This document shows, piece after piece, positions 12,945 to 58,858 of a DNA stretch of 64,000 nucleotides (the first letter of the stretch is position 1; every line of letters starts with the position of its first letter). Position numbers and translations under genes: made by a program. Source of the stretch: Hexactinellida sp. DTS-2022 (taxonomy: Eukaryota > Porifera > Hexactinellida); assembly GCA_028753945.1 (NCBI GenBank), contig JAPNXP010000002.1:8742001-8806000 (forward strand). The letters run 5' to 3'. The notes below the pieces were generated by a model that searched no databases, was not told the DNA's origin, and worked only from the letters and a program-made list of their open reading frames with translations.

Positions 12945-13681
12945 TGCGCTTTCTTTAACCTGGCAACTAGATTCATGCAATTCTTTCCATATCATATATT
13001 CAGCTAAATCTAATTGTTTCTCCCTGAGAGCTTGCTGCTTCTCAATACACATTTTGCAACTAATACATGCAATTTCATAATTTCATACTTTCCCAGTTTC
13101 CACAGATGTAGCACAAGCAACGCAGTATCTAGAAAATCCACCCCCCGATTTGCCCCCCCCATTATTAATATGCACCGTCATATGATACTGTGACCTCTAA
13201 AAATTCTGAATCGTCCGTGTTGTGTATTTTTCTCAGCTCTACGGCTGCCCGCATGCAGCTTGCTTGTGCTACATCCTTGGAAACCTTAGATAAATAATCC
13301 TGTGCTTTGTAAAATTCCCTATTAGATAACGTGGATGGTAAACCAATGAAAGTATTTATGTAAAAGAGTCCTGATTTTCCAATGCCAGCTAATCTACCTC
13401 CTAAAATTTGTAAAATGTTATTGCCAAACTTTGTAGTATTAACTGGGTCGGAATGGGCACTATTCTGAGGGAGAGTATAGAGAGGGACAGCTGTAAAACA
13501 TTGATCACAGACAATATAATAATGCAAGGCCAGTCCATGATTATACGACTTTCGATAGAAAGATAGCCGACCTTTACCACAAAACTTACACACATAAATA
13601 TCCGCTAAAGCACTCTCTAAAATTCCTACATCCATAATTCAATTGCCCACGACCTTACATAAATTTTGTTTTTCACCCCTA
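12945..13681 (-). pseudogene. Mutator-like transposase copy 1, middle part
   Basis: The minus-strand frame 13635-13165 (156 codons) encodes MDVGILESALADIYVC, a CxxC pair (CKFC then CDQC), GGRLAGIGKSGLFYINTFIG and ends VTVSYDGAY, where YDG holds the first catalytic Asp of this family. After a frame break, decayed sequence down to about 12945 continues with RYCVACATSVETGKV and YEIACISCKMC, equivalent to the ISTSTKKVLDYEI segment of copy 2. This copy keeps the first Asp that copy 2 lacks. The ATG at 13635 lies inside the homologous region, so the true N-terminus is further upstream. Confidence 0.75.
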
Positions 13682-21606: not shown

Positions 21607-24025
21607 GAGGTGACGAATAAATTCTGATTTTCATTTGGCTAATTTTATAGATTTTCCTCATTTTAACCAATTTTTCGCTGATTTTTGTACTAATCGAACT
21701 ATAAACTTACACCACCTGAGTTCAATTTGGAAATTTAAAATTCGGCTTCACAACAGTGTTCAATTAAACTATATAAATCTGTGCAAAATTTTTAAGTTTG
21801 AGTATTATTTATAACCTCCCTGGTAACTTTAACAGTTCGCCATTTTGGCCGGTTTGCAACATACAACTTTCAATTTCAAGTAACCTATTGAGGGAAAGTA
21901 TATATTAGTGAATTTAAATACCTGCGATTCGAATACGCTTGGTATACAATAATGATAAACTCTGTCGAAAAAGTTGAATTGTTGTACTTTCCAACGGTAT
22001 TGATCAATGGGTATAATGTATTATCATGTATTATCCGTAACTAAATAGCAGAACTGCCTAACTGTCCTTCAGACTGTCCCTCCCAACTCGGTGAGGTAAA
22101 ACTAGTGTATTAGGACCCTGAGTTCATAAAATATGTATGTAACATATATATATTTTCAAAACTAAACCAAAGATTAATGTATAAATACAATTAAACATTA
22201 ACTGTACAGTTAGGAATATGATTATAACATAATAATGTTATAAACTCTAACCTTGTAGACCCTCAAGGTGAGCATCCGCTTCTGAAGCTGCGCAACAATG
22301 TTCAGCACTGAAGACCATTTCATGTGATAGAATGTCATCGCTTCTTCACTCTAATTTCTTCATCACTCTTATTCAGGGAATGTTAGGTTATTTTTAATTC
22401 TGTTCCTCTTATAGCTAGTCATTTAAGTTTGTAATAATGGAATGACAAATTATTGGTGCGTCTCAGACGCCCCATTAAATCGTTGTAAACCTCTTTCTAG
22501 TATCCACCCTCTAATCGATTTCTATTTACCATACTATCAATCTTATAGCATTCAAGAAATTTGAAGGATGTAGATCTAACTTTAAATAAATATAATTAAA
22601 ATCAATTATTATACCGATTAGGAGTACACCCAATTTCAAATTGCTCTTCTTGTTCTTTCTTTAGACTTAAATGTATACGACGACCAATTGCGGTAGAGTA
22701 CAGCCAACTACAAATAGTAAGTCGACATTTTTTTCATCATTTATTTTACTCTAGTCTTACTCTGTTCGTGCTTGGAAGTAATTACATCTTGAGCATTTTA
22801 ATTATAATTACAATTACATATCCCTTATTCCACGCCAAATCTTCCAGTTGCTTCACTTATTGGGATTTAAGTTTCATAGGTTATTTAAGAGGTTGTCTCC
22901 ATTTTACAACTGAAATGTTGCTTACTTGAGTTACCGTTTTTCAAACTATTATTCTTGTGAAAGACTGCCCAGATTATTTTACGAACCAGTATTTGTAGAG
23001 CGTTGTTAAGACTAAGTCGATGAATAACTGGTAAACACCTTTCAAATCCAATATATACACAACAAATTTGTACACTTGTAAATTGCTGAAAATATCTTAG
23101 TTTTCGCTGATTACCAACGTGTCGATTAAAAATCATTTGGCTGGTTATCGAGTGGTAGGCTGTTTAGAACTCCTAAAGTTGATCAGTCTAGAATTGGATT
23201 AGCGTTGAGAGTAATTTGGGGTTTATGGTTTATCTTTTGCGAATATCGTGAAACACGGTCTACAGAAAACGAGTATTATATAATTTTTAACTAAGTAAAA
23301 TACAGAAAAGTCATTCTAGTTGCAAAGATATGTTTTGAATTTTAAAATAACAGTGATTGCTATATCCAAGTTTATAATTGTGAAAATTGATTCTGCTGAC
23401 TAAAACAGCCATAACTACTAACAAGAGTAAGGGCCTCAACCTTCTCCTAAACTTGCGCACGCATTACCCGGCATATACAATTTGTATATCAATACTAATG
23501 TTTGAATCGATTTATCCACATAATCTGCGAAAATTATTTCAGAACAACAAGAAAATCCAAGAGTCATTCCGTCTAAGAAGTTAAAAGTGATTACGGGATA
23601 ATTCCTTATCTCTCTACATTTGACTAAAGCAAGAAACCCTTCTTGCATGATATTTAATCTCAAATTAGTTCCTTGTATGCGAAACACACTATCTGACCAT
23701 AGCTTATGTGTTCATAGAAGGTATTCAATCATTTGGATTCTTGTGCTTGTCTTCTTACTTACTTATCCTATAGGAGAAGATTATATGTTACTATGTGTGA
23801 TGTTTAACTATATGATACCTCTATAAACTGTATTCCGGGCAGTGACTCTTTATAACACTTGTAGTATTTGTGGTTCTATTTATCCGAAAATTTATTGTAA
23901 AATGGCTGGAATCGGTTTCAAATACTATATACTACACCTCGATTATAATAATGACTCTGTGTGCATTTTCTCATGGTGATGTCATTTTTCAATGAGTAAG
24001 CATATTCGTGATTTTGGGTGGGGGA

Positions 24026-24179
24026 CAGGGTTTCTTTTAAGGGTCTTCTTGGTGGCAAAAAGCCTCCAAGATTTTTGGGAGTTACACCATGATTCTGTTA
24101 TGCCGCGGCCGCTGCAGTGTTGAGTTCCACCACGGCCACTCCTGAATTACACCACGGTCTCAACCTTAAAAAAACCCTG
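24026..24179. mobile_element. 154-bp hAT-type MITE, TSD GTGGGGGA
   Basis: CAGGGTTTCTTTTAAGG and CCTTAAAAAAACCCTG ends, with perfect TSD GTGGGGGA (24018-24025 and 24180-24187). It is absent from unit B, which has a different element in exactly the same octamer. The interior has CACGG / CCGTG repeats. Confidence 0.9.
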
Positions 24180-24842
24180 GTGGGGGATATGTTGATACAA
24201 TAAATATGCATATTATATTTTACTTTCTCTTATAGCGTGTGAGTTATGATTAATTGGGTCGATTTCCACATTTTGAAAATGTGACAATTACGTAATTAGG
24301 TGTTAATTTTTGTTCAAAACTCGTACTTATCCGAGCCAGACCCAAAATACACTGTTGCCCTTGATATATATTTCTATGAAGAGTAATTGTGTTTAATTTA
24401 TTTTATAGATTTGATTTATTTTTTGAAATTGTATGTCTGTATACAGTGTATTGTTATTTACCAACAGGTATTCAAATCTATTGTCAGATTTACACAATCT
24501 GGTTCTCGTAGTTATTCAATTGCAACAACAATTATTTAGTACTTAAAGGACCTCGCCTAATTAGAGATTCATTGCCTATCTATTTGAGAGATTCAAAATT
24601 AGCTTCCAATGCCTACCATAGATTATAATTTCAGAATGCTAGCCACTTTTAACATTCTCGCTACTACGTCTTTGCTCTTCTATTAACCTTTTGAACGTTT
24701 TGTAGTTCACAGTACATTTCCTCCTGCACTTATTCAATTCGAAAGCGCTCAAAGGCAAGGTACATCGAACCTTGTTGGGGACCTCTGCTCGTGGTTATAC
24801 AGCCTACGCAATCCCTATCGTGGTGAGCCCAGATAATGGTAA

Positions 24843-29760: not shown

Positions 29761-29811
29761 TTCCGTTATCGTTACCGTTACTCTGTTACTGAGTAACGGA
29801 GCACATCACTG
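29761..29811. mobile_element. terminus GCACATCACTG of a hAT-like element
   Basis: GTTAC/GTAAC inverted motifs end in GGAGCACATCACTG. The same terminus is found at 55839-55877 in the large repeat array. The other end was not found. Confidence 0.5.
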
Positions 29812-29841
29812 CTAGAGACTAGCTTCCTAATTTTTATATAG

Positions 29842-31596: not shown

Positions 31597-32449
31597 ATAT
31601 GTATGAAGCAGACTAAATCTGGAAAAACAAAACCTCCAACTGTGTCAGATGTTCTAGATGATGACAATCTGCAAAAGATGATTGAAAATGATAGCGCTTT
31701 CAAATTCTTGAAAACAATACGCTCAACTCCAGCTTTCTGGCAACAAAAGCAGAAAGAATTGATGAGTATGATGCGACAACTAGGCTGCCCTACATTCTTC
31801 CTGACACTGTCTGCAGCTGAAACTAAGTGGCCTGAATTGCTCAAAATACTAAAGGAGATCCTGGATGGTATACAATTATCAGTTGATGATATAATAGATT
31901 TGCAGTGGAGTGAGAGAGCAGACCACATAAGGAGAGATCCTGTCACCTGTGACAGGTATTTCGATCATAGGGAGTTCTTTAAGGTTCTCAAGGCGACGGT
32001 TAGTCCCCTTGGTGTATTAACTGACTTTTATTTGGGAATAGAATTCCAACATAGAGGGTCTCCACATGTACATTCATTACTTTGGACCCAAAATGCACCA
32101 AAATATGGGCTAGCTAGTAATAGTGAAATTATAAATTTTATCAATGCTGCAATTACATGCAATTTATCGAGCGATGACAGTAGTCAGAATGATATCCAAT
32201 TACAGATGCATAAACACACACATACAATGCTATAAGAAAAAAGGAATTAGACGTTGTCGATTTGGTATACCTTATCCTCCTATGGCTCAACTCAAATTTT
32301 GGAGCCATTTAAATTTATTGAAGAACTAATTAGCAAGGAGGATAAATTGTTAATTGATTCCCATAAACAGGCTAGTAAAAATATACAAGTTGATTGACGA
32401 AGTTGATAAGATAGATAATGATTTAAACATTAACTCATTCACTGACTTT
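31597..32449 (+). pseudogene. Helentron Rep (HUH endonuclease) domain
   Basis: The frame from 31603 carries the family landmarks: LKTIRSTPAFWQQKQKEL, MMRQLGCPTFFLTLSAAETK (the conserved FxTxSxAE block), WSERADHIRRDPV, then LGIEFQHRGSPHVHSLLW, whose HVH is the two-His metal site of HUH Rep nucleases. A short frame follows with the start of the KK...CRFGIPYPP block (32230-32290). The catalytic Tyr segment expected further on is cut by frameshifts and by the hAT element at 32458. In active elements this nuclease nicks and transfers single strands. Confidence 0.85.
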
Positions 32450-41499: not shown

Positions 41500-42236
41500 C
41501 ATTGTAATTAGACAAGCTATAGATGAATAAAAAAGTAAAAAATGTCAACAAAGTAGCGGATAACTTTAGGGAAAACAACGGAATAAGGGAAATCCTGACC
41601 AACGAGACAAACTACTAAAATTTCGTATAATAAGAACAAAATTAATTACAAATGTTATAAAGAATTACTGAGCGGAAAACAGTCTGTAGATATATCAAAA
41701 AGTTAAAAATGTCAACAAAGTAGCGGATAACTTCATGGAAACAACGGATGAAGTGCATTGGAGACCAACGAGACAACTTACTATAAATCTTCGTATAATA
41801 AGAACAAGATTACTACAATTGTTAGACCGAGTTACAAAGTGGAACACAGTCTATAGATATATAAAAGAGTCAAACATCTCAACAAAAAAGCAGAAAACTT
41901 CAGGGAAAACAAAGGACGAAGTGGATTGGAGACCAACGAGACAACTTACAATAAATTTCGAATAATAAGAACAAGATTAATACAAATGTTAGATCGAGTT
42001 ACTAAGTGGAACACATTCTGTAGATTTATCAAAGAGTTAAAAATGTCACAAAGTAGCAGATAACTTCAGGGAAAACTGCGGTATATGTAGCCATTCGAGC
42101 AACTAGAGAACTTACAATAAATTTTCAGAAAACGAGAACAATAATTTGTACAAGTTTTATAATGAGTTACTAACCAGGATACAGCCCGTAGATTTTTCAA
42201 AGAGTCAAACATGTCACATAGTAACAGATAATCTTC
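41500..42236 (+). repeat. satellite with ~167-bp monomers
   Basis: The block AATGTCAACAAAGTAGCGGA recurs at 41541, 41708, 41874, 42042 and 42209, giving spacings of 167, 166, 168 and 167 bp. Each monomer also has ACCAACGAGACAACTTAC, a TCGTATAATAAGAACAAGATT-like block and TGTAGATATATCAAA. The last monomer runs on as the start of the large repeat unit (equivalent to 49660-49795 in unit C). Confidence 0.9.
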
Positions 42237-46860: not shown

Positions 46861-47710
46861 ATGATTTATGCCGTCATCACCTTACCATCGAATTGAAAGT
46901 TGATATCATCGTTAAAAAGTAATGACTCTATAGATGAAAGTATATACTAACTTGCTGTCAAGCCATATTGCTGAACTTTGGTGTGGACTGAGCAATTCAT
47001 TGACTTGCAGAAATTGAAATACTAATACATTTTAGTTCAAATTTACAAACAGTGCTATATTAAGGAAAGTACAAGGGGACGGGGTGGGAGTAGATTTCTC
47101 ATCGTCAGTGCATAGTTAATAACATTAAGCTAACCAAGAAGGTGCACTAGAAGCAATCGAAAACTGGATTCACCGTGGACATCTAGCCATAATTATATAA
47201 TTATATAATTATTAATAGAATAAGTGTAATACAAAGCCAAAATAGAACGCATGTGTTGTACGCTTGGGTAGCTTAATCCTCTCCATAAATAGATCCAACT
47301 CTCTAAGTGAACGATAATTGGCTTTGTGAGCTAAATCTTCTATGTGAAATGACCATAAGTAATGTACAAGACATATAATCTACAAAATAAGTTATATGTG
47401 GCCTCCTCCTCCCCTACAGCCACATTCCAGTCCTCTCCATTTATAAATGATCATACTGCACTGTTATGTTAACAGACCGCACTACGTAGGCTCCGGTTTG
47501 GTTGGTAGGGCCCTGGACATACCAATAATTTGTTGATTCTCTATTTAACCAATTGCAAATTGAAAATAATCACCCAAGACCCAAACAATCTACAAATCCA
47601 AATAAAAATGGGTATAAAAATCCACATCCGGAATCTACGCCCCCGTTATACAGACAGCACTACAATAATAATCCACCGTAATTTAGCCAATAAATTAGCT
47701 AGAAACTCAC

Positions 47711-47855
47711 CTGTATTGAATACCAATCCTTGTGTTTCGTCCCGGCCTGGACTCGTCAGTTGCGTTGCCGTTCCGCAATACACTTTAGATGGAGAAGTGT
47801 TGGTTGGAGTGTTACGTAATAATTCGCCACTGGGGATGTGCCGTTGCAGGTCGCG
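47711..47855 (-). other. candidate exon end conserved in three unit copies (B)
   Basis: Minus-strand counterpart of 24843-24989, with the same open frame and CAG-GTGAGT donor (47709-47710). The plus-strand frame 47530-47880 is also open and 96% identical to that of unit C, but it runs antisense to the donor, so the coding strand is not settled. Confidence 0.3.
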
Positions 47856-48516
47856 TTACCATTATCTGGGCTCACCATAATGGGGATTGCGTAGCCTGTA
47901 TAACCTCGAGCAGAGGTCCCCAACAAGGTTCGATGTACCTTGCCTTTGAGCGCTTTCGAATTGAATAAGTACTGGAGGAAATGTACTGTGAACTACAAAA
48001 CGTTCAAAAGGTAAATAGAAGAGCAAAGACATAGTAGCGAGAATGTTAAAAGTAGCTAGCATTCTGAAATTATAATCTATGGAAGGCATTGGAAGCTAAT
48101 TTTGAATCTCTCAAATAGATAGGCAATGAATCTCTAATTAGGCGAGGTCCTTTTAAGTACTAAATAATTGTTGTTGCCATTGATTAACTACGAGAACCAG
48201 ATTGCGTAAATCTGACAATAGATTCGAATACCTGTTGGTAAATTACTATACACTGTATACTTTACAGACATGCCATTTCAAAAAATACAATAAATTAAAC
48301 ACAAATAATCTTCATATAGTATATACGTACATAGCAAGGGCTACAGTGTATTTTGGGTCTGGCTCGGATAAGTTCGAGTTTTGAACAAAAATTAACACCT
48401 AAGACGTAATTGTAACATTTTCAAAATGTGGAAATCGACCCAATTAATCATAACTCACACGCTATAAGAGAAAGTAAATATAATATGCATATTTATTGTA
48501 TGAACATATCCCCCAC

Positions 48517-49547
48517 CATGCGCTGCGCCAGGATTTTCGAACTGGGGGGGCACAGGGGGGGCATCCAATTTTTCAGGGGGCATCATTTCCATCTATCAGA
48601 ATTTATCTTAAAACAATGGAGTTACCATGAACTTGTCATACTTTCAAACAATCCAGGGATATTGGACTACATAGAAATTCAAGTGACTTTTTTGAAATCA
48701 CTTACTATATATGTATGCATTGTATTACAAACATGGTTGCAAATCCAATCCAATCCAATCGAGCCATTTTTTGACAATCGGCAATCCAAATTTCGCCAAT
48801 TGATTATTCGGATAACAATCCAATCGAAATCGACAATCCAAAATATCATCGATTGTTTTTTCGATTTTCCGATTTTTTTGGATTGTTTTTTGGATTGTTT
48901 CAATTGTTTTTGTTTAGCGTTATACTTAGTGAAACACTATGTATACTATAGTTTATGGTCAAAAAGAAACATTCGATAAAAATCAATAAAAATTCTTCAA
49001 TTGCAATCCAATCGATAACAATGGAAGCAATCCAATCGACATTCCAATCGATGAAAAATGCAGCAATCAATCTACAATCCAATTGGTAAAATCGAAGCAA
49101 TCCAATTGACAATCCAATCGATGAAAAATGCAGCAATCCAATCGACAACACAATCGATAAAAATCGAAGCAATCCAATCGAAAATAAAATCGATGAAAAA
49201 TGCAGCATTCGGCAATCGATAATCTTCTCGATTGGAATGGATTGGCAACCCTGATTACAAATGATGTTATTTTGAAGAAAATATTATCACAAATACTGTT
49301 AATAAATTTTTATTAGCTACTTTTGGGTGCGGCGATGCTACTATACGAAATATACAATAATAATACTATGTATGTTTTTTGATGAAAATTGGGCAAGCGT
49401 AGCGAGCGAGCTAAAATTTTCAGACAATAGAGCCTCTAGAAATGTGTCCATGGGAATGAGCTTTGGGATTATCTTGGGCGAATTTGTCACATATAATTTT
49501 AACTTCAGAATACACTAAATCCTGCCCCCCCTCTGGCGCCGCGCTTG
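48517..49547. mobile_element. 1.03-kb hAT-like element, TSD TCCCCCAC
   Basis: CATGCGCTGCGCCAGG at the left and CTGGCGCCGCGCTTG at the right, with perfect TSD TCCCCCAC (48509-48516 and 49548-49555). It occupies the same octamer that holds a different MITE in copy A. It contains an AAGCGTAGCGAGCGAG motif (49395-49410) and a nested element at 48732. Confidence 0.88.
48732..49253. mobile_element. 522-bp nested element of AATCCAATCGA repeats, TSD ATTACAAA
   Basis: CATGGTTGCAAATCCAATCC at the left, GGATTGGCAACCCTG at the right, with perfect TSD ATTACAAA (48724-48731 and 49254-49261). The body is dominated by CAATCCAATCGA(T/C)AA motifs in direct array. Open frames across it are repeat artefacts. 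hAT-like. Confidence 0.9.
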
Positions 49548-51627
49548 TCCCCCACCCAAAATCACGAATATGCTTACTCATTGAAAAATGACATCACCAT
49601 GATAAAATGCACACAGAGTCATAATTATAATCGAGGTGTAGTTTATAGTATTTGAAACCGATTCCAGCCATTTTACAATAAATTTTCGGATAAATAGAAC
49701 CACAAATACTACAAGTGTTATAACGAGTCACTGCCCGGAATACAGTTTATAGATGTATCATAGAGTTCAAACATCACATATAGTAACATATAATCTTCTC
49801 CTATAGGATAAGTAAGTAAGAAGACAATCACAAGAATCCAAATGATTGAATACCTTCTATGAACACATAAGCTATGGTCAGATAGTGTGTTTCGCATACA
49901 AGGAACTAATATGAGTTCAAATATCATGCAAGAAGGGTGACTTACTTTAGTCAAATGTAGAGAGATAAGGAATTATCCCGTAATCACTTTTAACTTCTTG
50001 GAAGGAAAGTGTCTTGGATTTTCGTGTTGTTTTGTTTAATTTTCTCGGATAATGTGGATAAATCGAGTAAAAATTAGCTTTGATGTACAAATTATATATG
50101 CCGGGTGATGCGTGCGCAAGTTTAGGAGAAAGTTGGGGCCCTTACTCTTGTTAGTAGTTATGGCTGTTTTAGTTAGCAGAATCAATTTTCACAATTATAA
50201 ACTTTGGATTTTGCAATCACTATTATTTTAAAAATTCAAAACATATTTTTGCAACTAGCATGACTTTTCTATATTACACTTTCGTTAAAAACAATATAAT
50301 ACTCATTTGAGTAGACCGTGTTTCACGAAATTCGCAAAAGATAAACCATAATCCCCAAATTACTCTCAACGCTAATCCAATTCTAGACTGATAAACTTTA
50401 GGAGTTCTAAACAGCCTACCACTCGATAACCATCCAAATGATTTTTAATCGACATGCTTTTAATCAGCGTTAAACTAAGATATTATCAGCTTAACAAGAG
50501 TTCAAATTTGTTGTGTATATATTGGATTTGAAAGGTGTTTACCAGTTATTCATCGACTTAGTCTTAACAACGCTCTACAAGTACTGGTTCGTAAAATAAT
50601 CTCGGCAGTCTTTCACAAGAATAATAGTTTGAAAAACTGTAACTCAAGTAAGCAACATTTCAGTTGTAAAATGGAGACAACCTCTTAAATAACCTATGAA
50701 ACTTAAATCCCAATAAGTGTAGCTCTTGGAAGATTTGGCGTGGAATAAGGGATATGTAATTTTAATTTTAATTAAAATGCTCAAGATGTAATTACTACCA
50801 AGCACGAACAGAGTAAGACTAGAGTAAAATAAATGTTGAAATAAATGTCGACTTACTATTTGTTGTTGGCGTACTCCACCGCAATTGGTCGTCGTATACA
50901 TTTAAGTCAAAAGAAAGAATACGAAGAGCAATATGAAATTGAGTGTACTCCTAATCGGTAAATAATTGATTTCAATTATATTTATTTAAAGTTAGATCTA
51001 CATTCTTTAAATTTCTAGAATGCTATAAGATTGACAGTATGGTAAATAGAAATCGATTAGAGGGTGGATACTAGAAAGAGGTTTACAACGATTTAATGGG
51101 GCGTCTGGGACGCTCCAATAATTTTACATTCCAGTATTACAAACTTAAGTGACTTGCTAAAGGAGGAACATAATTAAAATTACCTACATTTCCCTGAATA
51201 AGAGTGAAGAAGAAATAAGAATGAAGAAGCGATGGCATTGTATTTCATGAAATGGTCTTCGGGCGGTTAACATTGTTGACCAGCTTCCTAAGCGGATGCT
51301 CACCTTGAGGGTCTACAAGGTTAGAGTTTATAACATTATTATGTAATAATCATTTTCCTAACTGAGTAACGTACAGTATATGTTGTATTTTTATTTTTTT
51401 ATTTTATTTTTGGTATATTTTTGACAAGATATATATGTTACATACATATTTTATGAACTTAGGGTCCAAATAAACTAGTTTTACCCTTCCGAGTTGGGAG
51501 GGGCAGTCTGAAGGACAGTTAGGCAGTTCTGCTATTTAGTTAGGGACTCTTGACTGATAATACATTATACCCTCTGATCAATGCCGTTGGGAAGTACAAC
51601 AATTGACTTTGTCGACAGAGTTTATCA

Positions 51628-52506
51628 TTAAGGTTCAGGTATACTCTAGAGCACTTCTACCAAATATATTTACCCGAATTAATCAAATTTTTTACAGCGG
51701 ATTACTTCATCTTCTAAATGGCAAAAATGCAATAATATTCGATCTAGGCAACTCAGTGAATTTTTTTTTTTTAAATCGTATTTTGCGGAACGGATAAGTA
51801 TATTCCTGTTAATTATTAAGAGTAGATTGTTGTTGCATTGCATGAAGAAACTTCTAAACTATCATATGAGTGCAAGAATTCTTTTAATCACTTATGAGTC
51901 AAATTTTTGATCAATAAATGTGGACATCACTTTTTTCATCATCAATAAATTAAATAAAAATAAAAAGAAAAGTTACAAATGAAATCGCTGCACTCATATG
52001 ATAGAACTAATTGAGAGCTGTCCAAAACCATTGAGATTTTGTTTCTAGGTAGTATATGAGTCATAATATGACTTCCGCAATGGCAATAATTGTGTTTGGA
52101 GATAGCGGGGTTTGAAAAAAAGTGTCCCCTATGGCAGTGGCTTAGGTGGAGGACACTAAAAAGTCTGTATCATTGAAAGTTTTCAATATTTTCCCATAGG
52201 ATTTGAAATTAAGATGCGATATATGCTGTTCTATCCAAAAATAAGATATAACCTAAATGTGGCAATGTCCCGAAATTATCAAGTTTCTATGGTATACTGC
52301 AACCGGCAACCAAAACCAAAACCCCAATATTTTTTTCAAAACTAGAAGTGAGTCAAACTGGTGAAATATTTGGGATTTTTCTTTGAAATTTCGTGAGAGT
52401 CCACATGGGTATCCTCACAATCAGAAAATGCAATAAAAACGAGATTTACCATAGTTTGGGATTTTATCGAAATTTTGGGATTTTGTAGAGGATACCTGAG
52501 CCTTAA
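51628..52506. mobile_element. TTAA element family B, copy 1
   Basis: 879 bp; TTAAGGTTCAGGTATACTCT at the left and GATACCTGAGCCTTAA at the right. Unit B has the empty TTAA-less site (TTATCATTATTGTATACC). Shares ACAGCGGATT and GCAATAATATTCG-like blocks with 60972-61678. Non-coding. Confidence 0.88.
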
Positions 52507-53096
52507 TGTATACCAAGAGGATCGCAGATTTGAAAATTCATTAATATATACTTTCCCTCAATAGGTAACTTGAAATAGAAAGTTGTATGTTGTAAACCGG
52601 TGTTCATAAAAGGTAATCAGAAAGTGGAAACTGGCAGATTCGATTAACGGTAACCCACCTCTATACATGTGTACTATTACCCGGACTTTTCACGGACTCC
52701 GGGTTAAGTCCGGATAGTTCCGGATAACTCTGGGCCATCCGGAATTGTCCGGGAGGCGAGTGATTTTACACCTATGATACTTTTGCAGAGACAATATGCT
52801 TACAAGGTTTCATTTGGTGCGAAAATCTAGATTTCATTCTTCCTACTGGCGCCAAATTGAATGCATTTAATTACACAAAATTGTCCATTTTGGTCTGCAA
52901 AATTTAGGCGCTAAAAATTAGGCCGCTATTTGGAAGTTGGAACCATTGTAGAACCTTTGGTGTAACCAATAACTGATGATATTTCAATGAACGATAAATC
53001 TATGTGCAGTTTACTATATTAGGAAATATTTACTTTATTGTTTTGTTGATTAGAAAAACACTTTGAATATCTCCATCTTCCTAAATATATGAATAT

Positions 53097-53621
53097 CTAT
53101 ATTATTAAATCTCGATTGTTGTGTGTGTGTGTGTGTGAGTTTGTTTGTTTGTTTGTCAGGATTGTATTAAAGTGATGGGGGAATAGAAACCGCATTTATA
53201 TATGAGATATAAACTAACTTTCAAATGTTATAATAGGTAAACAAGTATGCTGAACACGAATTTCGCATTTACAAATTTCTATTATGAATATATATTGTTG
53301 TTGTTTACACAAAATAGGTAAACAAATTAATTAAAATTCAAAATCAACCTAGAAGTTAGCTTTCAACGGATATTATAGGTAAACAATATGCTGAACACGA
53401 ATTTCGCATTTATATAATTCTAATATGAGTATTGTTGTGGTTGTTGTTGTTTATACAAATAGCCTGAAATGGGTAAACAAATTAATGAAAATTCAAAATC
53501 ATAATGTCCCTATCTACCATTTCCATGGTAGAAAATGTGAGGGGTAAGGCCGCATAGAGGCCGTTAACTTAAAGTGCGAAGCACCGATCTGTCGCAAAGC
53601 GACCGAGACCGAAGGGCTCGT
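53097..53621 (+). mobile_element. Pearl/HINE-like element, copy 2
   Basis: 525 bp. It starts CTATATTATTAAATCTCGAT, then (GT)n and (TTTG)n, TTAAAGTGATGGGG, two to three core repeats with AGGTAAACAA, and the 3' hairpin GTCGCAAAGCGAC before GAAGGGCTCG. Unit B gives the empty site. Flanks share TATATGAATAT (11 bp), which looks like a target duplication. Confidence 0.82.
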
Positions 53622-53824
53622 ATATGAATATAGTATAGTACTTAAAAGTCAATTCAGATAGATAATTCATATCATGGAATGTAAACTTACATATTTAGCT
53701 CCATTCTCAATTTGGAAAACAATCGCTAGTTCTACAATCAATTCGTTGCTGGCGAATATCGAAATGACGTCGTGTCACCTAATATTGAAATAATAACTTG
53801 GAACTTTAACGTACTATTGTTATA

Positions 53825-53983
53825 CAGTGGAGTTGCTTTATTAGCAACTCCCCCATTAGCAATAATATTCCTTTATTAGCAACCGCTTTTCGGGTCCCAA
53901 GCGTGATAATACTGTTAATTTCATTCCCCCATTAGCAACCAGATTTAGTGGCAAACACTTATGCTATCAAGCGAACTCCACTG
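53825..53983. mobile_element. 159-bp pogo-like MITE in unit C
   Basis: Ortholog within the array of 46298-46456, with the same ends and TA flanks. Confidence 0.85.
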
Positions 53984-55281
53984 TATTTTCATTTAAATTT
54001 CTATATTTATTTACCTGGAAAAGAATCTGTTGCAATCTCTATGCTATTTCCCTCAACTATTATAAATGTATTTCCATCAGCACTCACTTGCGTGATAATT
54101 ATATAACTATATAATCACATCTAGATACCAAATAAATAAAATATTACAACTAGTGTATTAAACATTTTTCAGTCTAGTTACCTATATCTAGGGAAATGTA
54201 GAGAAGTAGAGTTATTCCTATTGATACATTTACCTTCAAAAGAACACTCCGTAATATCACTTATTTTGTTTTGGAATTGAAACCTGTACAGAAATCAATT
54301 TTGTTCATGTAACCCGGAAATTCGTATTAACTGTAATCACTTGGATGCATTAGGATATCTAGGAGAATTAAACTGACATTTCGCCTTATCCGTGTTCACA
54401 ATAACGCGAGTCTACTGTCTATAAATGTGTTATTCACAATAATAATTTATGAAAAATTCATCACCTTACCATTGAATTGAAAGTAGATATCATCGTTAAA
54501 AAGAATTTACTCCAAAAGATGAAAGTATATATACAAGTTAACCTAACTTGATATGAGGCCATATTACTGAACTAAGGATTGGACTGAGCAATTCATTGAC
54601 TTGCAGAAATCAAAATACAAATATATTATAGTTCCAATTTTATAAACAGAACTATATTACGAAAAGTACAAGGGCTAGAGTCGATTTCCTTCCGTCAGCG
54701 CATAGTTAATACATTAAGTTAACATATAATGTGCACAAGAAGCAATCGAAAAACTGGATATGGATTCCCTTGGTAAATCTAGCTTTAATAGAATAAGTAT
54801 AATACAAAGCTAAGTTAGAACGCATGTGTTGTTTGCTTGGGTAGCTTAATCTTCTCCATATTTACATACAACTCTCTAAGTGAACGATAATTGGCTTCGT
54901 GAGCTAAATCTTCTATGTGAAATTCACATAAGTCATGTACAAGCATATAATCTAGAAACAAAATTAGTTATATGTGGCCTCCTCCTCCCCTACAGCCACA
55001 TTCCAGTCCTCTCCATTTATAAATGAACATACTGTTATGTTAACAGACCGCACTACGTAGGCTCCGGTTTGATTGGTAGGGCGCTGGATATACCAATAAT
55101 TTGTTGATTCTCTATTTAACCAATTGCAAATTGAAAATTGTCACCCAAGACCCAATCAATCTACAAATCCAAATAAAAATGGGTATAAAAATCCACATCC
55201 GGAATCTACGCCCCCGTTATACAGACAGCACTACAATAATAATCCACCGTAATTTAGCCAATAAATTAGCTAGAAACTCAC

Positions 55282-55426
55282 CTGTATTGAATTCCAATCC
55301 TTGTGTTTCGTCCCGGCCTGGACTCGTCAGTTGCGTTGCCGTTCCGCAATACACTTTAGATGGAGAAGTGTTGGTTGGAGTGTTACTTAATAATTCGCCA
55401 CTGGGGATGTGCCGTTGCAGGTCGCG
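55282..55426 (-). other. candidate exon end conserved in three unit copies (C)
   Basis: Third copy of the donor segment. The frame ending in TSPGRDETQG stays open; the alternative frame is stopped by a TAA here. Confidence 0.3.
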
Positions 55427-55838
55427 TTACCATTATCTGGGCTCACCATGATTGGGATTGCGTAGCCTGTATAACCTCGAGCAGAGGTCCCCAACAAGGT
55501 TAGATGTACCTTGCCTTTGAGCTCTTTCGAATTGAATAAGTACTGGAGGAAATGTACTGTGAACTACAAAACGTTCAAAAGGTTAATAGAAGAGCAAAGA
55601 CATAGTAGCGAGAATGTTAAAAGTAGCTAGCATTCTGAAATTATAATCTATGGAAGGCATTGGAAGCTAATTTTGAATCTCTTAAATAGATAGGCAATGA
55701 ATCTCTAAATAGGCGAGGTCCTTTTAAGAACTAAATAATTGTTGTTGCCATTGATTAACTTCGAGAACCAGATTGCGTAAATCTGACAATAGATTCGAAT
55801 ACCTGTTGGTAAATTACTATACACTGTATACTATACAG

Positions 55839-55998
55839 ACGGAGTAACGGAAGATTTAGTAACTGAGCACATCACTGTCCCACACCCAAAATCACGAATA
55901 TCCATTCTTATTGAAAAAATGACATCACTATGATAATGCACATAGTCTTTATTATAATCGAGGTGTAGTATATAGTATTTGAAACCGATTTCAGCCAA
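55839..55998 (+). repeat. hAT-like terminus fused to the start of a third unit
   Basis: 55839-55877 (GGAGTAACGG through GAGCACATCACTG) is the same terminus as at 29811. It abuts TCCCACAC (55878-55885), the third copy of the target octamer, followed by CCAAAATCACGAATATCC and onward homology to unit C up to about 55998. This shows that the array once continued. Confidence 0.75.
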
Positions 55999-56517: not shown

Positions 56518-58858
56518 TTAAGAACACTTGTCACAGATGAAAGGTCCGGCTGAGACAATCTCGTATACTACATCAGCGCAGTAGCAGTGGATGCAGTCTG
56601 AGCATTCATCACAGCATACCCATAGCGACTCTATCTTCTTCCCGACTCGTCTGAGTGCTACTGGATCAGGCTCTCTCTTATCGCATATGGCACAAAGGGT
56701 TGTCGACTCGTCAGAACTACTAGAAGCATCACCAAAAGACTGACTAGAGACAGAAGGAGTACTACGCTCTTTGAGTTTTCTCTTCACGCCTGTAGAAACT
56801 CCTCTCGCCTGTCTACCCCGTCCTCGGGTCTGCCTACCTCTCTTCCTCTGCGTGCTCTCAGCTCCATAACGTCCTCCTCTATAGCTACCCCCGCCTTCTG
56901 ATTTCAGCAGTGCCTTCTCTCTGTACTGCTTGACCAGCTTCAGTCTTCTTCGTCGTCGCTAGAAATTAGACATAATCCTGGAAGTTCGGGAACTTTGCAA
57001 CTTATGAATTCGGTTGACTATTGACTGGTAGACCTGCCGAGATGGAGACAGTCCAAGGTCGTACATAATCCCGAAGAGTGACAGTTCTCCCTCATTGAAA
57101 CTCAGAACAGCGAAGGCAGTGCTAATCCTGATAGACTGAGGAGAAACGTGCTTGTTCCTGGGACAGAGACACCATATCATGTTGTGTAACGATTCATTCG
57201 CATTCTGAGTTAGACCCAGTGTCAGATGGCTGCAGAACTCAGTCGTGGCATAAGTGTTGAAGACCTCGCGTACCTTCTGGATTTCAATAGGTGTAAAGGT
57301 GGTCAAAGTGGGTGGTATTGTGGAACTAGAAGGTTTATTCCAACGACACCATGTGTTCTCTCCGGTAGGACAGCCAGAATGATTTCCTGCTGCGTGCTCG
57401 AGGAGAAGGCGTAGAGCTCGTGACAGCTTATCAGGTGTTGTCCCACGATTATGTAATATAACGGTAGAATAGTTCGCGGCGATATAGTCAGCTTTCCATT
57501 CGGAGAGTTTGTGTTGTATATAGGTTTTTGTCCTTGTATTTGGCTTCATTTTCTTTAGGTTCTTCTTCAGACGCTTGGCAGCATGTGTCAGACATTCTTC
57601 TTTTCGCACTTTCACAAGGGGATAAGGATCAAGAGTTGTTGCGTGCTGAAAGGCCTTAGAGTCTCCGTCACAAACAAACACGGAATACACCAGGCGGTTC
57701 TTCTCCAAGCTGCGACCCCAGATCCTCTCGGCAGCTTCCGGCTCCATTGCTTGGGAAGATCTTGTGTAATTCCTGTTGCAATTCGGCTTATGACGCTCTA
57801 GCCACTTCTCGTACTCGGACGGTTTGTCCTTCTGTTTGTCTTCTGTCCATATAGAGCACTTCTCGCATAGTCGACTCAAGATCTCGTAGTCCAGTACTTT
57901 CTTGGTGGAGGTAGATATGGCAGCACCGAAACCTATATTGGAGTAGAAACCCCTGGTCTTCTAGGAGCTGTCGAAAGATATCGGAACGTTGACATAACTT
58001 GACTTGGGGGTGGCATATCAAATACTGTAGCAATCTTGTGTAAATCACGCCTGAGATACCGGTTGAATGTGTGGTTAATACCGATCTCATCGTAACTTCA
58101 TTCATATCTTGGGGGGTAAAAGGTACATTGACACAAGTATGGTGGCTGGGCATGTCCAGAGAACGTGAGGATGGGAAAGTTGCGTGTTCTGAATGGCAAC
58201 TCTGGCACTTGACCCTAAAGAATGTCTGCCAACCGTATTTGCGTTTCTCTTCGTATAAGGCAAGGAGTGAATCATTGCATTTGTTGCATTGAAAGGTAGC
58301 GAATACTTCGGCTAAAATTCCTACATCAAGAATCCTCATACCAGTAGGTGTAGATGCAATCTTGTTAGAATCACCATGAGATGTTCCAAACTTCACTGAT
58401 CTAGGATAGGTATATAAAGGAATACGGTATTTAGAAGTATATCCTCGTAGAGGATGGGTTTTTGAGAACTTATGACTCCTGAATTTGCTTTTAATTTTGG
58501 GAATAGCTTCTAGTTGCTTGACTAAGGCATCTTCTATGGTGTCAACTTTGCCTAGAGTGTGCCTTCTGGCGTAGATTCGCTTGAAAGGGCGACCCCTACG
58601 TCTCCGACTTGTCAAACTGTCTGCATCCTGAGGCGCTATGTCAAGTTCGAAGAAGGACTCTGAGATCCCAGGTGTTGGTGGAGCGATTGATGTTTGGGAT
58701 GATGTCGTTTTAGGTGGAGGAGGTCCTTGAGAAGAGATGGTAGCAAGGGGAGACTGGGGATCGGAAGGAATACTGTCTGAATCTGTTGAATGAGCCGTCG
58801 GAACAAAATCATCAAACTCATTGAAAAGTTGAGCGTCGAAGCTTGACTCGCTTGACAT
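56518..58858 (-). pseudogene. Mutator-like transposase copy 2 with PHD-like finger
   Basis: GC-rich and well preserved. N-terminus (from ATG 58858): Ser/Pro/Thr-rich, basic RRRRGRPFKRIYARRHTLGK, then MRILDVGILAEVFATFQCNK and paired Cys motifs (CNKC, CQSC). After a shift near 58045 comes FDMPPPSQVMSTFRYL. A second shift near 57970 leads to RGFYSNIGFGAAISTSTKK, RLCEKC, AMEPEAAERIWGRSLEK, VFVCDGDSKAF (second catalytic Asp) and KEECLTHAAKRL, then HNRGTTPDKLSRAL and NANESLHNMIWC. One in-frame TAG (~56956) separates this from an RGG-rich stretch and a PHD-like finger (CAIC, WVCCDECSDCIHCYC, CDKC). About 45 residues with the first Asp (YDG in copy 1) are missing. Inactive as it stands. Confidence 0.85.

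Follow-up and report, generated by a model that had tools for sequence, protein, structure and literature searches.

Three unrelated hAT-like elements occupy the same octamer in paralogous copies of a repeat unit of a hexactinellid sponge

INTRODUCTION

Recurrent same-site insertion has already been described for other transposons. In intron 4 of the Triticeae beta-amylase gene, Stowaway miniature inverted-repeat transposable elements (MITEs) were repeatedly inserted at, and lost from, one site, and that study also lists Drosophila hobo, two PIF elements that together account for six insertions in a maize r gene, and Pokey in Daphnia (PMC1925063). Target motifs of hobo are given as GTNCGNAC and NTNNNNAN (PMC3276498), and hATx-6 is presented as a hAT transposase of low sequence bias (PMC8721813). 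Here, we analyze a 64,000-nt stretch of DNA from Hexactinellida sp. DTS-2022 (the window; assembly GCA_028753945.1, contig JAPNXP010000002.1, hereafter C11, C11:8742001-8806000), in which three elements, designated A, B, and E3, adjoin one octamer in paralogous copies of a large repeat unit. These unrelated, nonautonomous hAT elements probably entered a single 8-bp target in separate events, at a spot that would be favored locally by its context.

RESULTS

Copies of the large unit occur in the window as an inverted one at ~21.8-25.1 kb and a tandem pair at ~42-56 kb. On the minus strand of the inverted copy, element A, a 154-bp hAT-like MITE (24026..24179) with ends CAGGGTTT/AAACCCTG, stands between two octamers (24018..24025 and 24180..24187) that read GTGGGGGA on the plus strand. 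Element B (the CATGCGC element; 48517..49547, plus strand), a 1031-bp hAT-like, nonautonomous insert with ends CATGCGCTGCGCCA/TGGCGCCGCGCTTG, is flanked by TCCCCCAC at 48509..48516 and 49548..49555 (both plus strand). The original prediction had placed the MITE with its two octamers at 24018-24187 and the larger insert with its own at 48509-49555, and both placements hold to the base. The plus-strand flanks of the B site, 47580..48508 on the left and 49556..51630 on the right, are homologous to 25116-24188 and 24017-21950, respectively, at the A site. Both elements have perfect junctions with no footprint bases. All sites were read from assembled contigs, in which a misjoin is a formal possibility.

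Copies of the site were counted by searching the assembly (112.4 Mb, 18 contigs) with the empty site and reading the junctions; 39 of the 216 first-look candidates were scored, and the count is therefore a lower bound. At least 22 copies reach the octamer, of which three are empty (L009, L010, and L013), one holds A, one holds B, and 17 are filled by E3. C11, with 15.6 of the 112.4 Mb, holds 19 of the 22. A single TCCCCCAC is present in L009 (C11:6710296-6710304) and in L010 (C11:6789687-6789695), in both cases within the undivided context ..CAACATA TCCCCCAC CCAAAATCACGAATATG..; the octamer of L013 (within C11:8206652-8207069) is TCCACCAC. Because the empty copies carry one octamer, A and B are insertions with an 8-bp duplication. 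The possibility raised at the outset, that most copies would be empty and the filled ones due to assembly joins, does not match the three empty copies found among 22. In addition, a TTAA-bounded 137-bp piece of the unit (query 97-233) was found at two unrelated places on C11 (L029 and L030, 1501-1637).

The third element had been noticed from one end only, as a terminus abutting the octamer at 55878. At this C site, the octamer TCCCACAC (55878..55885, plus strand) comes directly after GAGCACATCACTG, and an E3 right-end remnant, ~40 bp plus a few junction bases of no assignment, occupies 55832..55877 (plus strand), its left part deleted. The left part of E3 is missing together with ~250 bp of left flank, the last position of the left arm being 55831 (query 44) and the first of the right arm 55878 (query 296); flank homology runs only to 55997 at site C, whereas it continues further at sites A and B. 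The adjoining terminus is that of E3, as other copies make clear: 13 of the 17 E3-filled sites have both ends, and four have one (L027 the left; L072, L073, and window copy C the right). The abutment thus stands, the single end is completed by these copies, and the third case is a decayed E3 copy.

E3 begins with CAGTGATGTGCTCCGTTACTA and ends with the complement, forming a perfect 21-bp terminal inverted repeat (TIR). Nested insertions and repeats of the GTAACGG type inside the element make the arm-to-arm distance at E3-filled sites vary from 279 to ~2980 bp. Several E3 insertions were considered, as the E3 bodies differ strongly, but the common short internal form speaks for one: it was found in 13 of 14 unit rows, the remaining row (L039) showing neither form and none the long form. 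Elsewhere, five of six E3 copies have the long form. The short form shared by the unit copies suggests that E3 represents one insertion subsequently copied along with its host unit. Two different elements nested in E3 (L023 1984-2138 and L026 1976-2731, unit-orientation coordinates) have overlapping targets, TTAAG and TAAGGTAA, a near-coincidence. A second E3-family end lies in the window at 29770-29819, outside the unit site, with GAGCACATCACTG at 29799-29811 and then the octamer CTAGAGAC.

A, B, and E3 all have 8-bp target site duplications (TSDs) and short TIRs beginning with CA and finishing with TG, the hallmarks of hAT elements (A, CAGGGTTT..; B, CATGCGCTGCGCCA..TGGCGCCGCGCTTG). By these structural features, they are hAT-like, nonautonomous families. 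Copies of each family are scattered across many contigs (candidates scored: ~40 of 472 for A, these being further copies, 40 of 404 for B, and 40 of 254 for E3). hAT dimerization domains are abundant in the assembly (150 scored, all over the cutoff), and none was linked to the ends of A, B, or E3. Among the matches listed, the sole one between A and B is a chance match of 9 bp (E 0.97), and none links either of them to E3. The three inserts therefore look unrelated, not like rearranged parts of one element, and the empty copies together with the complete E3 copies bear out the proposal that three different hAT-like families inserted independently at a single octamer.

In the right arm, A, B, L009, and L010 differ from one another by 1.7 to 3.2% and from all other copies compared by 6.6 to 14.9%; their grouping has a support of 84/91, and E3 belongs to the other lineage. 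Since the right arms closest to theirs belong to the empty L009 and L010, A and B have empty sisters. A late gain of E3 and an ancestral E3 with later loss both require three separate insertions. The B and C sites are successive site versions in the tandem pair of the window, and the empty L009 and the E3-filled L015 are arranged likewise, ~13 kb apart on the same strand of C11. We infer that the site version of A and B would be a tandem duplicate of the E3 version.

The empty L009 and the E3-filled L014 are 0 to 0.3% apart over the nearest 1.2 kb of the left arm and 8.5% apart in the right arm, with the switch no more than ~40 bp away from the octamer. This recombination boundary would be explained by a conversion tract ending at the E3 heterology or, as the more interesting alternative, by repair of the break that E3 left on excision. 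The boundary is also the main support for a replacement scheme, in which E3 came first and, on excising, left behind a break between its two octamers; an A or B element excised elsewhere would have been joined into this break and so have inherited the E3 duplication. The mismatch between the octamer of A and the TSD preference of its own family would be accounted for in the same way. However, the junctions of A and B are perfect and without footprint, and the two copies nearest to them in the right arm, L009 and L010, are empty and carry one clean octamer each, so that we regard replacement as very improbable.

TSDs were collected for each family to ask how the octamer scores. For A, 21 of 29 other copies were used (15 with exact 8-bp duplications and six assigned by eye after a mismatch or shift) and eight were dropped. 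The 28 B loci (L001-L008 and L074-L093) gave 23 octamers, 11 of them one-ended and 12 with both ends equal; L001 is the site itself, L002 and L085 repeat the sites of L004 and L080, respectively, and L007 and L008 have one end, and these were dropped. The 19 E3 TSDs comprise 18 of 20 right ends (two likely duplicate sites were dropped) and window 29812-29819; 8-bp octamer copies of E3 were read at the unit sites and right ends only elsewhere. In the resulting TSD matrices, TCCCCCAC scores under all 21 usable A-family TSDs. Of the 21 A-family TSDs, 18 have TA at positions 4-5, a center that marks the Buster group of hAT and that GTGGGGGA lacks. B and E3 TSDs lean to nTnnnnAn, and TCCCCCAC matches this pattern at one of its two positions. 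One of the 63 family TSDs has, like the site octamer, six or more G/C.

A strong preference for the octamer, common to the transposases, had been offered as an explanation of the shared site. The partial fit to the nTnnnnAn lean of B and E3 is a point in its favor, but 65%, 40%, and 25% of the octamers in the L009 unit score as high as or higher than TCCCCCAC under the A, B, and E3 matrices, respectively. With the missing TA center and the rarity of G/C-rich TSDs, this makes such a preference extremely improbable, and the predicted target preference is not borne out at the level of the octamer. The letters of the site do not match what any of the three transposases prefers, as they would in a sequence-specific hot spot.

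Plain coincidence is the main rival to a hot spot set by context. Abundant hAT-like elements and many repeat units could have placed three insertions on one base somewhere, where they were then noticed. Hundreds of first-look candidates per family (472 for A, 404 for B, and 254 for E3), the 150 dimerization domains, and an octamer without special motif or conservation all fit this account, as do 13 other insertion candidates in unit copies (11 outside E3). These candidates come from pairwise comparison of unit copies; rows read as E3-internal, 168-bp or other tandem repeats, and ambiguous breaks were left out. Two of them overlap (both in E3), and no exact same-base pair was found among the 13. 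Under uniform placement (15-25 events over 1.5-9 kb), the expected number of same-base triples is 5.6e-6 to 1.0e-3. Both results speak against coincidence, to which we nevertheless give a real chance, if clearly short of even.

The octamer is contained in a ~250-bp block whose identity to one arm of a foldback family with dispersed copies is 69 to 76%. This family, with 713 first-look candidates, has inverted arms longer than ~320 bp (L122-L126; pairs on C1, C3, C5, C13, C14, and C15); it was recognized as an inverted repeat by eye, the unit matches one arm only, and the family ends were not reached in the loci read. No self-inverted match indicating a hairpin at the site was found in L009 or L013, a weak test that also missed the known inverted repeat of L123. 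A rearranged arm beside the octamer in L126 was considered as a new insertion and set aside, since the same arm recurs in L148 as a family variant.

Several points weigh against the account of separate insertions at a spot favored by its context. Among the matches listed, none of the 15 further dispersed copies read is split at the octamer, all of them having family-like sequence directly upstream, and an exact, restrictive pattern allowing no mismatches gave no dispersed copy with a TG end before the octamer. The same sequence was thus not found to be hit elsewhere among these copies, contrary to what a sequence-specific hot spot would predict. A uniquely conserved motif at the octamer, suggested by three alignments, was not upheld with 13 arms, in which the 24-bp block that contains the octamer has a mean identity of 0.82, against 0.85 to 0.89 in three other blocks. 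With these copies unsplit and conservation at the octamer unexceptional, a favored unit site would not owe its status to the block by itself. Four of the 23 B TSDs and three of the 19 E3 TSDs score lower than the octamer, which makes it an ordinary acceptable target for these two families. The right-arm tree is weak, with no starred branch, and a single clade of E3 copies is neither shown nor rejected by it (p-AU 0.31, short right-arm tree). The chance figures are optimistic, the true one being higher, because the case was picked after being seen. The sequences compared revealed no positive cause of a hot spot.

The host unit is itself of recent spread. Its homology extends from the octamer site into a Mutator-like transposase gene, which lies downstream of site C in two overlapping frames (56959..58858, minus strand); PF20700 matches 56962-57879 (E 1.8e-31) and, at 57791-58858, reaches an E of only 3.9e-4, under the family cutoff. 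A C11 copy and a C18 copy of the larger unit have 98.8% identity over 14 kb, and the loci L018 (C11), L017 (C12), and L016 (C18) are identical across 3304 bp, from which the recent spread follows. The termini of the large unit, where a Mutator-like element would carry long TIRs and 9-11-bp duplications, were not found; the two copies that match over 14 kb enter 168-bp arrays on the left. Such ~168-bp tandem-repeat arrays were seen left of the unit at window 41517-42236, in L010 (1-2243), and in L118, and a 168-bp monomer comes next in the A/B version of the site. Elsewhere in the window, 31603-32235 encodes a Helitron-like N-terminal domain (PF14214, E 5.5e-24), and 13165-13635 holds a second Mutator-like fragment (PF20700, E 1.1e-10). 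An Rfam scan of the window at gathering thresholds gave no match.

DISCUSSION

The octamer is preferred by no family, and around it stand empty sister copies, matching 8-bp duplications, intact ends, and unrelated inserts. The sequence of events that would best account for them is transposition of A, B, and E3, each into a TCCCCCAC target within copies of one large unit. E3 most likely entered once, in the unit lineage that carries the Mutator-like gene, and was copied with the unit to at least 17 places. A and B would have entered separately, in another version of the site that is apparently a tandem duplicate. We infer that what favored the spot was its context rather than its letters, be it accessibility, as in the exposed site of the original prediction, the shape of the DNA, or a protein bound there. 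A context-set hot spot at this octamer is possible on the sequences compared. A stronger form of the idea, a base-pair-precise landing site for different hAT families irrespective of their own motifs and set by context inside another mobile element, is somewhat doubtful; if true, one transposon would serve as a landing pad for several others. Should the spot prove favored, it would offer a small, countable natural test of how hAT integration is guided by something other than the letters of the TSD.

Common descent is often considered proven by identical insertion sites and duplications. Because three unrelated families share the octamer, two of them in sister copies, identical sites and TSDs can be homoplasious even where the octamer is not preferred. 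The case is modestly unusual and illustrates clearly that transposon insertions in paralogous repeats can be homoplasious. Our literature search brought up no case of one octamer shared by three hAT families, which does not establish that none is in print.

The closest parallel is the Stowaway case, where a tree, empty sites, and divergent elements likewise led to the inference of independent insertions at the same nucleotide (PMC1925063). There, one superfamily with a two-base TA target was involved in one gene, whereas here three hAT-like families with 8-bp duplications meet in paralogous repeats. The hobo, PIF, and Pokey cases listed in the same study concern class II elements found repeatedly at exactly one site, with two distinct elements for PIF (PMC1925063), in contrast to the three unrelated families at this octamer. 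With hobo, the sponge elements have in common the 8-bp TSDs and, for B and E3, the lean to nTnnnnAn, but TCCCCCAC is a poor fit to the hobo motif and the TSDs of the A family are centered on TA (PMC3276498).

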